Shown one piece after another: positions 21,070 to 25,289 of a DNA stretch of 64,000 nucleotides. Position 1 is the first letter of the stretch. Each line of letters opens with the position of its first letter. This DNA is from Knoellia remsis. Lineage in GTDB: Bacteria > Actinomycetota > Actinomycetes > Actinomycetales > Dermatophilaceae. A program made the position numbers and the translations under genes. The notes beneath the pieces are model-generated. The model saw only the letters and a list, made by a program, of their open reading frames with translations, was not told the origin of the DNA and did not search any database. The DNA lies in NCBI RefSeq assembly GCF_003002895.1, contig NZ_PVTI01000002.1:62001-126000 (forward strand), written 5' to 3'.

Positions 21070-23130
21070 TCACTTCGGGAGCGGGAGGTCCTTGAGGGTG
21101 ACCTGCTTCTTGGTATGCCGTTCGCTCAGGTCCGCGAACGCCTGCCGGATCGTCTTGGCGTAGAGGTGGGCGCCGACGAGGGAGGGGTGCAGCCCGTCGG
21201 ACTGCAGCTGGCCCTCGGTTCCCTCGACGGCGGCATCCCAGTCGGCGAGCGCCACGTTGCCCCGGCCCCGGGCGAGCTCGCGCAGGGCGGCGTTGTCGTC
21301 GGCGATGCGGCTCATCCGCCCGTGCAGCGTCACGAGGACGACCATCCGGTCCGGCCCGAGTGCGTCGAGGGTCTGGCGGGCGCGCCCGACGTCGACGCCC
21401 GCGTTCGTGCCGAGGGCGAGAACGACGGCGCGACGGTTGTCGTCGCCACGCTCGGTCACGGCGGCGAGGCCCTGGGACCACTGGCGGTTGGACTTCGCGT
21501 CGATGCGGATGCCGGGGAAGTAGTAGCGCAGGGCCTGCAGGCTGCCGACCATCATCGAGTCGCCGTAGGCGTCGATCTCGGCGCCCGTGGGCATGGTCCA
21601 GTCCTGTGTCACCGCCGCCGACGGGGCGTTTGACGCGCTGGCCGACGGCGCCGGCGCCGCCCCTGACGGGCTCGCGGATGCGGCCGGTGTCGGGGCTGCA
21701 TCAGCGGCGTTGGCCTCGAGCAGCTCCTGCACGCGGGTTCGGCCCGGCGCCGTGGCCAGGACGACGGCGAGGGCGATCGTGAGGACGGTGACCGCCGCCC
21801 AGGTGGCGCGCGCGGTGCGCGTACCGGCATACCGTAACCGCCGCAGCCCACGCTGCGCCGCGCTCCGGAAGCCGTGCTGACGGACGGGCGTCTCGACGAA
21901 GCGGAAGGAGAGGTCGGCGATGGCCACGGTGACGAGCACGGCCCACAGCCGGGACCAGAGGTAACCGTCGTCACCGCGCTGCGCCCACGCGAGGTCGGCC
22001 TCGATGATGAGGATGACCGGCCAGTGCCAGAGATAGAGGCCGTAGGAGCGCTGGCCGATCCAGCGCAGGACGGGCGCGTCGAGGACCGAGCGCAGGGGAG
22101 AGGGGCGGTCGACGACGCCGAGGACGAGGATGGCCGTGGCGAGCGAGGCGAGCAGGATGCCGCCGCGGAAGGTGAACGGCGTCGACTCGTCGAGGAGGGC
22201 GACGAGCGCGACGAGGACGAGCCCGGCGACGGCGAGCACGGGACGGCGGACTCGCTCCCACCGCCCGGTCGACGTCCAGGCACGGTGCGGCGCCGCCCAC
22301 GCGAAGGCCAGCGCGGCGCCGAGCATGAGCCCCATGAGGTGGGTGTCGGTGCCGTAGTAGACGCGCGTCGCACCCTCGGCCGGGTCGAAGCGCACCGCCA
22401 TGAGCACCGCCGAGCCGACGGCCAGTGTGACGGCGACGAGCGCACGCGCCCGCGCCGACGGCGCGAACCGCAGCAGCGCAAGCGCGACGAGCGGCCACAC
22501 GAGGTAGAACTGCTCCTCGACCGCCAGCGACCACAGGTTCATGAGCAGCTGCGGTGACGTGCTCTGGAAGTAGTCGGACCCGGCCGCGATCTCGAGCCAG
22601 TTGCTCGTGAAGGTCAGCGCGCCGAGGGCCTGCCGGCGGATCCCGACGAGCAGGTCGGCCTCGACGAGCCGGGCGATGAGGGCCACGGTCGGCACGAGGA
22701 CGAGGAGGGCGGGGAGGAGCCGGCGGGCGCGCCGCGTCCAGAACCCGCGCAGGTCGACGCGGCCCTCGCGGCGGTGCTCACGCACGAGCAGCGTGGTGAT
22801 GAGGAAGCCGGAGATGACGAAGAAGACGTCGACGCCGAGGAAGCCTCCCGGCAGCCACCGCGGGTCGAGGTGGAAGAGCAGGACGGCGATGATCGCCGCG
22901 GCCCGCAGGCCGTCGAGGCCGGGAAGGCGGCCACGCTCCCGTTCCGGGTGGCCGCCACTGTCGGCATCGACGAGCGAGCGGTGGCCGTCGAGCGCGGCAG
23001 GTGTGCCCACACCTGCATCGGCCGCGCCTGCGTCCTCTGCGGCTGCATCCGCTGCGGCTGCATCCGCTGCGGCTGCATCCGCTGCGGCTGCGCCCGCTGC
23101 GGCCCGTCCCGCCGGCGTCTCCACGCTCAT
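21070..23130 (-). CDS. AT3-family acyltransferase with C-terminal SGNH domain (OafA-like)
   Basis: 686 residues. After an alanine-rich repeat N-terminus (residues ~5-45), the acyltransferase-3 domain begins at GLDGLRAAAIIAVLLFHLD and runs through about ten membrane segments with FFVISGFLITTLL and SLAVEEQFYLVWPL. The extracytoplasmic C-terminal part (AEIDAYGDSMMVGSLQAL, later DGLHPSLVGAHLY) is an SGNH hydrolase-like domain with GDS and DxxH. It probably O-acetylates a surface polymer such as peptidoglycan or polysaccharide. Convergent with mutM. Confidence 0.88.
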   Translation of the reverse strand: MSVETPAGRAAAGAAAADAAAADAAAADAAAEDAGAADAGVGTPAALDGHRSLVDADSGGHPERERGRLPGLDGLRAAAIIAVLLFHLDPRWLPGGFLGVDVFFVISGFLITTLLVREHRREGRVDLRGFWTRRARRLLPALLVLVPTVALIARLVEADLLVGIRRQALGALTFTSNWLEIAAGSDYFQSTSPQLLMNLWSLAVEEQFYLVWPLVALALLRFAPSARARALVAVTLAVGSAVLMAVRFDPAEGATRVYYGTDTHLMGLMLGAALAFAWAAPHRAWTSTGRWERVRRPVLAVAGLVLVALVALLDESTPFTFRGGILLASLATAILVLGVVDRPSPLRSVLDAPVLRWIGQRSYGLYLWHWPVILIIEADLAWAQRGDDGYLWSRLWAVLVTVAIADLSFRFVETPVRQHGFRSAAQRGLRRLRYAGTRTARATWAAVTVLTIALAVVLATAPGRTRVQELLEANAADAAPTPAASASPSGAAPAPSASASNAPSAAVTQDWTMPTGAEIDAYGDSMMVGSLQALRYYFPGIRIDAKSNRQWSQGLAAVTERGDDNRRAVVLALGTNAGVDVGRARQTLDALGPDRMVVLVTLHGRMSRIADDNAALRELARGRGNVALADWDAAVEGTEGQLQSDGLHPSLVGAHLYAKTIRQAFADLSERHTKKQVTLKDLPLPK
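23041..23100 (+). repeat. 15-bp tandem repeat, four units, in acyltransferase N-terminus
   Basis: Units GGCTGCATCCGCTGC at 23041, 23056 and 23071, with a one-base variant at 23086. On the coding strand they give an Ala-Ala-Asp-Ala-Ala period, and degenerate copies continue on both sides. The in-frame unit length would let copy number vary without frameshift. Confidence 0.85.
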
Positions 23131-23905: not shown

Positions 23906-23929
23906 CGGCGTCTCCTGCTCGCCTTCCCC

Positions 23930-24005
23930 CTTTCCCGCCTGATCACGGGACCGGGGTGTTCGTGTCGGAACCGTTCCGCCCCGAACACCCCGCTTCCGCC
24001 ACGAA
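23930..24005 (+). repeat. Left 76-bp inverted repeat flanking the AbiEi-like gene
   Basis: The reverse complement of 25062-25137 with about 6 mismatches. It contains an imperfect palindrome (GGTGTTCGTGTCGGAAC/GTTCCGCCCCGAACACC) and, at its outer end, TTTCCCGCCTGATCACGG. It starts 24 bp after the chorismate mutase stop. Confidence 0.85.
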
Positions 24006-24030
24006 CCCCCGGCCCGGGCGCACACGTCGC

Positions 24031-24069
24031 TTGTCCACAGGGCACGACTCCCGGCGGCGGTTGTCCACA
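24031..24069 (+). promoter_or_regulatory. Two DnaA-box-like TTGTCCACA words, 30 bp apart
   Basis: TTGTCCACAG occurs exactly at 24031 and 24061. It equals the actinobacterial DnaA box. The pair sits between the left inverted repeat and the AbiEi-like gene and could be an operator. Only two copies are present, so this is not an origin. Confidence 0.5.
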
Positions 24070-24122
24070 GATCCCGAGCATGGGGTGGCGATGCGTCATC
24101 CGACGGACTGAAGGTCGGTCCC

Positions 24123-25040
24123 ATGAAGCTCGACGACAACCTCCTCGCCATCGCCGCGACGCAACGCGGCATGTTCACGACGTCGCAGGCTCGTGGCGTC
24201 GGGCTGGACCGCAAGGGGCTCACCGCCGCGGTCGCTTGCCGACTGTTGTTGCATCCGGCGCGCGGTCTGTATGCCGTGGCGCACCTTGTCGACACCGACC
24301 CGGCCGTCTGGCACGGTCACCTCGCGACGGGCGCGCACCTCATCTACGAGAACGCCGCACTGACCGGTGTCACTGCCGTCCTGGCGCACGATCTGCCGGT
24401 CTGGGGGTGCCCGCTCGACCGGCCGGCCATCGCACGGGAGACCGCTCGTAGGGTCGGGACCAAACCGTTCCGCGTGCGGCCGCGAGAAATGGGGCGCACG
24501 GTGGAATCCCCTTGGGGCCCAACGGTTCCCCTCGCCGACGCCCTCGTCCAGCTCGCGGTCGACCACGGCATCGTGCAGGGCGTGGTCTCTGCCGATGCGG
24601 CCCTGCACCGGAAGTTGGTCACGGTGGACGAGCTGACGGCGGCCGTCGCATCCGTCGAACACTGGCCACGGTCGAGCCGACCCCGCGCGATGCTGACGTT
24701 CGTCGACCCGCAGTGCGAGTCCGTGGCAGAAAGCCGCGCACGCGTTGAGTTCCTGACGCACGGCATACGGGTCGTCTCACAGGTCGTCGTCCGGAGGCGG
24801 GACGGATCGATGATCGGACGCGCGGACTTCGGCGTGGAGGGCACAGACGTACTGGTCGAGATCGACGGCAAGGTCAAGTACGCCGACGGCGACCCCGAGG
24901 TGCTGTGGCGCGAGAAGCGACGCGAAGACGACATGCGTGCCGAGGGCAAGATCTTCGTGAGAGTGACGTGGGCCGATCTGGAGGTCTCGGGTCGAGCGTC
25001 GGCGAAGGTGCGACGGGCCCTGCGCGACCGGGCGGCGTGA
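24123..25040 (+). CDS. AbiEi-like / DUF559-type protein with PD-(D/E)xK-like core
   Basis: 305 residues. The N-terminal ~90 residues resemble the AbiEi antitoxin winged-helix region (IAATQRGMFTTSQARGVGLD, then LLHPARGLYAVA). The C-terminal part has GRADFGVEGTDVLVEIDGKVKY, giving D...E-x-K as in the Vsr/DUF559 nuclease fold. No AbiEii partner is adjacent. Such solitary genes are frequent in actinobacteria and their function is not established. The ORF, with AAGGTCGG as RBS, is enclosed by 76-bp inverted repeats, suggesting a cassette that moves or recombines as a unit. Confidence 0.8.
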   Translation: MKLDDNLLAIAATQRGMFTTSQARGVGLDRKGLTAAVACRLLLHPARGLYAVAHLVDTDPAVWHGHLATGAHLIYENAALTGVTAVLAHDLPVWGCPLDRPAIARETARRVGTKPFRVRPREMGRTVESPWGPTVPLADALVQLAVDHGIVQGVVSADAALHRKLVTVDELTAAVASVEHWPRSSRPRAMLTFVDPQCESVAESRARVEFLTHGIRVVSQVVVRRRDGSMIGRADFGVEGTDVLVEIDGKVKYADGDPEVLWREKRREDDMRAEGKIFVRVTWADLEVSGRASAKVRRALRDRAA

Positions 25041-25061
25041 CGGCCGGCGGGCGCCTGGAAC

Positions 25062-25137
25062 TTCGTGGCGGCAGCGCGGTGTTCGTGGCGGAACAGTTCC
25101 GCCACGAACACCCCGGTTCCGTGATCAGGCGGGAAAG
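25062..25137 (-). repeat. Right 76-bp inverted repeat flanking the AbiEi-like gene
   Basis: It contains a perfect 17-bp palindrome (GGTGTTCGTGGCGGAAC, one central base, then its complement). It is about 92% identical to the inverted copy at 23930-24005. The remaining 150 bp to smc show no gene. Confidence 0.85.
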
Positions 25138-25289
25138 AGGGCAGGTCTCAGGAGTCGCAGGAACCACACGCGTCACAGGCATCACCGGGCGCCCGTCGCG
25201 TCCCGAGAGCGCCCTGACCCCGCCGGTACAGTGAGCGCTCGACCTGCACCCCGTGCAGCCCGCCGTCCCCGAGCACCGAGAGCCACCGC

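Follow-up and report, generated by a model that had tools for sequence, protein, structure and literature searches.

REPtrons and TIRtrons, as outlined in PMC3733652, couple a RAYT or TIRYT tyrosine transposase gene to a family of REP or long-TIR repeats. The gene lies between inverted, tagged repeats of a type specific to it, and single and paired copies of that type are dispersed mostly outside genes (PMC3733652). One gene, repeats at both of its ends, many solo or paired copies, and little movement of the gene itself make up the pattern portrayed in these accounts (PMC3733652, PMC3116915). REPINs are described as miniature mobile DNA arranged in inverted doublets and apparently served by a single-copy gene of the same genome (PMC3116915). 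Apart from the enzyme, these traits are also seen in the family of genes and repeats examined here, which we approached through one gene of Knoellia remsis and the 64,000 nucleotides of DNA around it (the whole stretch is hereafter called the window). The encoded enzyme is a different one: an AbiEi-type winged helix followed by a predicted PD-(D/E)XK nuclease, not a HUH/Y1 transposase. Its N terminus is of the kind found in AbiEi, the antitoxin of AbiE type IV toxin-antitoxin systems, and both AbiEi and Rv2827c are reported to bind inverted repeats (PMC7319586). The C-terminal core of the family resembles the Vsr-like DUF559 and MTES_1575 nucleases, as introduced in PMC3710099. Unlike AbiEi, the proteins studied here have a putative nuclease as their C-terminal half and the genes have repeats at both ends; no AbiEii (DUF1814) toxin gene lies adjacent, the neighbors in the window being chorismate mutase and smc. 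Inverted ends, together with gene-bearing and short derivatives, are features shared with insertion sequences (IS) and their MITEs. Tn7 TnsA, a PD-(D/E)XK nuclease partnered with the DDE transposase TnsB, illustrates that this fold can serve transposition.

The window gene (305 amino acids; 24123–25040, plus strand) is located between a chorismate mutase gene and smc. The original prediction had the acyP–smc neighborhood interrupted at this point, which is correct on the smc side; the gene directly after acyP encodes chorismate mutase (Pfam CM_2), so the place of the unit is between chorismate mutase and smc. The flanking inverted repeats proposed on first inspection (76 bp, ~92% identity) are real, and repeat finding in the window extends them to arms of 84 nt that are 90% complementary, at 23922–24005 (plus strand) and 25062–25145 (minus strand). 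Their inner ends lie 117 bp before the gene start and 21 bp after the stop codon, within the 120 bp originally given. As had also been anticipated, each arm contains a palindrome, with the outer tag outside and the palindrome inside. The right palindrome has a 17-bp perfect stem (25078–25112; repeat finding, hairpin scan, and fold z), and the left one is imperfect and weaker (23952–23992; hairpin scan, fold z −4.4/−5.2). Folded as single strands, both arms reach z values of −4.4 to −5.3 on both strands, with 0 of 200 shuffles as good. A pattern search with up to three mismatches allowed found the 18-bp tag TTTCCCGCCTGATCACGG exactly twice in the window (0.05 expected), at the two outer ends: 23931–23948 on the plus strand, where the match is exact, and 25119–25136 on the minus strand. 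Scored by the strongest inverted match between its 500-bp upstream and 450-bp downstream flanks, the window gene reached 128, compared with at most 29 for 33 other window genes tested and a maximum of 36 in 1,170 dinucleotide shuffles of family flanks; the inverted match is therefore not due to chance. Separately, tandem GCGGCTGCATCC units occupy 23040–23110, at the start of a long minus-strand open reading frame (21070–23130) that encodes an Ala/Asp-rich repeat.

The protein had been labeled AbiEi/DUF559-like. Its sole Pfam match at E ≤ 1 was AbiEi_4 (E = 0.0005, below the Pfam cut-off), and the PADLOC AbiEi profile matched at 3e-10, placing a winged helix at residues 7–52. Neither DUF559 nor MTES_1575 matched the window protein in Pfam at E ≤ 1, so the second half of the label holds for its relatives only. 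Among 40 aligned members, at E ≤ 0.01, the AbiEi-type N terminus was detected in 33, MTES_1575 in 17, and DUF559 in 14. The predicted core comprises E203, D235, E246, D248, and K252. After a length and completeness filter had removed 4 of 117 members, E203, Q220, D235, E246, D248, and R267 were invariant in all 113, and K252 was retained in 110. Such invariance suggests selection on the nuclease core among these members. Judged from sequence, the C-terminal half is a Vsr/DUF559-like PD-(D/E)XK nuclease domain with its core intact. An AF2 model of the window protein, built from four sequences, had a pLDDT of 48.7, and profile searching retrieved no significant solved relative. Pfam recognized no transposase or recombinase domain in the window protein or the 40 members, its matches being confined to AbiEi_4, MTES_1575, DUF559, and AbiEi_3_N, and NCBIfam gave no match for the window protein. 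Plasmid and phage collections contained no relative of the window protein, and viral contigs contained no member of the nuclease family; a single PHROGs family was matched, by 2 of the 40 members.

Beyond the window, the family was assembled as a first set of 117 members (8 found in the window genome by protein query, 29 search loci, and 80 fetched roughly down the E-value list from part of the matches listed) plus 29 loci from a profile search of other genomes of the class. These members are not independent, as many are orthologues. Of 118 genomes of the class that were sampled, 101 contained a match to the family; the window genome alone yielded 13 matches by profile, and a scan of genome contigs returned three loci only. 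With a cut-off score of 40, the 99th percentile of 3,000 cross-locus pairs, inverted repeats were detected at both ends of 103 of the 146 members, the window gene included (80 of 117 in the first set, 23 of 29 among the further members). None of 58 control genes, 33 of them from the window and 25 from other loci, reached this score. Within the window genome, seven of eight members passed (the window gene and those on C28, C5, C13, C4, C9, and C3), and the member on C7 scored 24. The matched arms span 29–149 bp, with a median of 77. Their sequences track protein relatedness (Mantel r = 0.48, with 0 of 2,000 permutations as high). Above 60% protein identity, 51% of 59 pairs have recognizable shared arms; the share falls to 5% of 160 pairs at 50–60% and 0.3% of 314 pairs at 40–50%, with none below, a steep drop that implies fast divergence of the arms. 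When arms were ordered by the protein tree and a part of them inspected, common outer tags were found within clades. TGA(T/C)CA(C/T)G faces outward at both ends of 10 of the 146 loci and at one end of 12, and never inward at both ends; the TTTCCCGCC tag is present on both sides in six loci and on one side in four. The arms are thus tied to the nuclease gene family. The question raised originally was whether the window repeat always flanks this family: the sequence itself does not, and 43 of the 146 score below the arm cut-off, although 103 carry a repeat of their own, largely specific to the member. Rfam gave no match at gathering scores for five loci. As a further observation, the 8-mer CGGCATAC/GTATGCCG is frequent on both sides of the genes (upstream in 22 and downstream in 26 of 146 loci), occurring in the window around 23552, for example.

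A second conserved element is located in the leader between the upstream arm and the gene. Unbiased 8-mer counting ranked TCCACAG-containing words at the top upstream of the genes and not downstream. Counted on either strand within 260 bp upstream, TCCACA is present in 135 of 146 members; the corresponding figures are 3 of 58 for control genes and 6.3% for random window pieces. The 220 bp downstream contain it in only 6 of 146. Of the 43 members that fail the arm test, 38 retain TCCACA upstream. The leader consensus is GTYRTCCACAG, with one TCCACA in 81 loci and two or more in 54. Neighboring copies are regularly arranged, with both on the forward strand in 49 of 56 pairs and a spacing of 28–30 bp in 42 of 56. 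A stricter pattern, T[GC]TCCACA, was found upstream of 58 of 146 members and 0 of 62 control genes. In the window, the two motifs are perfect copies of TTGTCCACA on the plus strand (24031–24039 and, 30 bp after it, 24061–24069), the only two in the 64 kb. In M. tuberculosis and S. coelicolor, this sequence is listed as the DnaA box of high affinity (PMC4285127). The leader motif would read either as a DnaA binding site or as the family's own conserved operator.

Copies of the arms also occur without the gene. Among the best 40 of 259 candidates scored in its own genome, the window repeat has at least one extra copy (C6:63535–63613), which follows ilvC and has no family gene. Searched against 98 genomes, it matched only its own genome, a congener with a related repeat at its own family gene (G004, eight matches), and one 31-bp stretch in G089. 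Three genomes with clear arms (G004, G019, and G189) were chosen for searches with their own repeats and, with the window genome, make up all four genomes searched in this way. The G004 type, queried as a typed consensus, was found in 20 distinct places, 18 of them away from the gene, after rows had been merged by hand and recounted. The G019 type was found in 26 distinct places, 24 away from the gene, with 40 of 43 candidates scored (the two weakest rows have E values of 3e-4 and 6e-4). In G189, which belongs to another family of the class, the 80-bp arm of the gene was found in at least 42 places, at least 40 of them away from the gene and 84–94% identical; these counts are lower bounds because 40 of 104 candidates were scored. 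The repeat sequences of the three genomes differ from one another. Single matches to the type that flanks the G001 gene were found in other Knoellia as well, the window genome (C1:68629) included.

The G189 copies inspected (30 of 42, both gene arms included) have sharp ends and unrelated flanks; 16 consecutive tag bases are invariant in all 30, and C tends to be more frequent than G just before the tag. Inverted pairs also exist in this genome, one 152 bp apart on C320 and another on C34 bracketing a gene that resembles one for a tRNA methyltransferase. No target-site duplication was found in 28 copies: flanking words of 2–9 nt showed no excess over shuffled pairing except at length 4, where there were three matches, a number reached in 7 of 200 shuffles. 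In this respect the system differs from IS elements and Tn7, as it does in a cassette that has no recognized transposase domain or partner gene. HUH systems are likewise not known to leave a target-site duplication. That copies should be scattered without the gene, as ordinary REP sequences are, was the outcome the original prediction had set against a mobile cassette. Such copies exist, and since they match the flanks of the same genome's nuclease gene, as in REP/RAYT systems, the cassette survives and ordinary REP sequences were rejected as a full explanation.

Folding differs among these elements. A G004 solo element forms a near-perfect 100-nt hairpin (z −11), and several solo units of this genome consist of one near-perfect palindrome of ~90–100 bp tagged at both ends. 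A single copy of the G189 arm shows no folding advantage over shuffles (z +1.1 and +1.2), and the consensus fold of the G189 copies has 10 pairs, of which 2 show change on both sides, with a covariation term of −0.24. On account of the G189 arm, a hairpin was rejected as the general substrate. Palindrome cleavage, as first envisaged for this protein, may therefore be the wrong picture for part of the family.

Empty and filled sites were compared across nine Knoellia genomes at two gaps between convergent genes. The first gap is empty in G001 (22 bp) and the window genome (23 bp). It holds a 102-bp solo repeat in G004, of that genome's own type, and a solo of the G001 type in G008 (117 bp). Other palindromes, identified by eye, are present in G006 (201 bp) and G002 (362 bp), and G007 carries ~2.1 kb of other sequence (C11 25431–27509) with a long palindrome (GTCTTTGTGCCCCAGTGGGACAA...) at one end. 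In G003 and G005 the gap is occupied by a gene of a second DUF559-like family with inverted repeats, again by eye. The G005 protein matches Pfam DUF559 at E = 0.006, below the cut-off, and the leaders of both genes contain two TCCACAG motifs 29 bp apart. This second family (motif GEYDGDQH; loci L227 and L229) lies between inverted repeats that, judged by eye, are palindromic, and the system may be wider than the nuclease family studied here. A separate short palindrome, GGGTCCCACGCT..GCGTGGGC, was seen in one arm on C28 of the window genome (L031) and again in the G006 gap (L221), and is possibly another small dispersed element.

The second gap, beside msrB, contains the nuclease cassette in five of the nine genomes, where it measures 1,253–1,266 bp. 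It is 25 bp in G007, 31 bp in G006, and 47 bp in the window genome, all without the cassette, and contains another palindrome in G008 (150 bp). The presence of the cassette at msrB in five of nine genomes indicates that gene movement is rare. A flip in gene orientation between species was considered and rejected, the five msrB-site genomes sharing one collinear orientation. At the chorismate mutase–smc gap, where a comparison with empty loci had been suggested, G008 has no cassette, and G019 has a solo repeat of its local type. In a genome of another genus (G039, locus L170), this gap is filled by a GGTCTGGGACTTCGG-like repeat in several copies. A midpoint-rooted tree of 21 members joins the window gene with the five msrB-site genes at 100/99 and nests it among them: four of the five cluster with it to the exclusion of the G004 gene (97/90), and within this cluster the four form a group of their own (98/95). 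Given this position, the 47-bp msrB gap, and a cassette at smc, the most parsimonious account is a single relocation in the window lineage. The comparison thus supports the mobile cassette first proposed, and the tree and empty sites suggest that the window cassette probably moved from the msrB site; independent gains, or duplication and loss, may instead account for the distribution.

The resemblance to REPtrons has limits beyond the enzyme. No GTAG or CGTC tag was seen by eye, the tags here being of the TGATCACG and CTTTCCCGCC types and others, and with arms of the lengths given above, some have no hairpin fold. Compared with REPINs as described in PMC3116915, the enzyme and the sequence differ, and several G004 solo units each consist of a single tagged palindrome. 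The Y1 transposase domain (PF01797) was matched in none of six genomes (G000, G002, G004, G005, G008, and G019) and in 5 of 14 control genomes. A REPtron-like pattern with no Y1 transposase led us to propose that the winged helix recognizes the arms and that the PD-(D/E)XK core cuts them. We consider it reasonably probable that the window cassette belongs to a large family of small mobile cassettes in actinomycetes, in which a nuclease binds, cuts, and moves its own arms in a REPtron-like manner, with a non-homologous enzyme and a leader tied to DnaA.

Such a cassette would consist of an outer tag and an arm bearing a binding site or palindrome, a leader with one or two DnaA-box-like motifs, the winged-helix and PD-(D/E)XK gene, and an inverted arm. 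The AbiEi-like winged helix would recognize the nuclease's own arms, and the Vsr/DUF559-like core would nick or cut at or near the tagged ends. The whole cassette would move rarely, and a single arm or arm pair more often, giving solo elements inserted mostly into gaps between genes. For the poorly folding G189 arms, recognition of double-stranded sites rather than hairpins is favored. The binding, cutting, and movement of arms by the protein, and the mechanism by which copies are made, are proposals. Through the leader boxes, DnaA would tie expression to replication initiation, making the cassette perhaps replication-coupled.

The same observations could be read with a stationary protein. In that case, the gene would encode a host regulator or an orphan AbiEi-like antitoxin, the arms would be operators and terminators evolving with the gene, and the dispersed copies would be a regulon or shared terminators. 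AbiEi-type proteins are described as binding promoter inverted repeats and repressing themselves (PMC7319586), and the window arms and a G004 solo element fold strongly. The genomic context of the solo copies points both ways. In 50 solo loci judged with a rough ORF caller, 15 lay between convergent, 19 between co-directional, and 3 between divergent gene calls, 4 overlapped a gene call (n = 41), and 9 were too short. The 34 of 41 in convergent or co-directional settings agree with this reading, whereas 3 of 41 in divergent settings do not fit a promoter regulon. Nor would a regulator need copies on both sides of its gene or an intact nuclease core. The sharp-ended G189 copies in unrelated flanks, the empty gaps of sister species, and the probable move of the cassette would leave dispersal still to be explained, and we regard this reading as unlikely.

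Two other explanations retain mobility and change the role of the nuclease. The arms and solo copies could be MITE-like elements of another, unrecognized transposase, with the nuclease gene as a passenger. Interspersed copies with sharp ends are what such elements would leave, the nuclease gene contains no recognized transposase domain, and our survey of genomes for transposases covered Y1 (PF01797) only, none being found in the six genomes. A passenger would not be expected to be accompanied by arms across the class, with the arms following its tree. Close pairs are also informative: the only two listed places less than 3 kb apart in G004 and in G019 are those around the nuclease gene. The places listed for G189, from 40 of 104 candidates scored, include three other close pairs, of which two leave no space for a gene and the third surrounds a housekeeping-like gene. 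We find a passenger gene quite unlikely. Homing-type enzymes are known among Vsr/PD-(D/E)XK nucleases, and this precedent, with the repeated use of the same gaps, raises the possibility of a selfish homing-type cassette whose protein cuts a target into which recombination copies the cassette, with no transposition as such. Homing needs homologous flanks, however, and the G189 copies have unrelated ones; insertion into one recognition site would not be expected to yield two full inverted arms, and solo copies without the gene are numerous. We accordingly judge homing very unlikely.

Returning to a nuclease that moves its own arms, the cassettes look like a kind of mobile DNA for which we found no description, though one that works like a known kind, the REPtron. 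To our knowledge, no mobile element described so far depends on such a nuclease by itself. We lean slightly toward the broader claim that this is a new class of bacterial mobile DNA, in which a lone AbiEi-type winged-helix/PD-(D/E)XK nuclease moves cassettes gated by DnaA boxes and seeds actinomycete genomes with nuclease-specific REP-like repeats. The genes concerned, which we take to be commonly annotated as orphan AbiEi antitoxins or DUF559 proteins, would then be its transposases. In the titles and abstract openings of the papers listed, with preprints and most subscription papers outside the scope, no link of the nuclease family to flanking or dispersed repeats was evident, and the DUF559, AbiEi_4, and MTES_1575 literature showed no repeat link at the same level.

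If this proposal is right, the family offers a compact nuclease system in which the sequence beside each gene reveals the likely target, the protein's own arms, providing many natural protein–site pairs. Whether control of a mobile element is coupled to replication becomes directly testable through the DnaA-box-like motifs. The finding also bears on REP families without a dedicated transposase, a matter left open for CGTC repeats in the account of Di Nocera et al. (PMC3733652). REP-like repeat populations would have arisen a second time, with an unrelated enzyme, and a common actinomycete gene family would gain a function.
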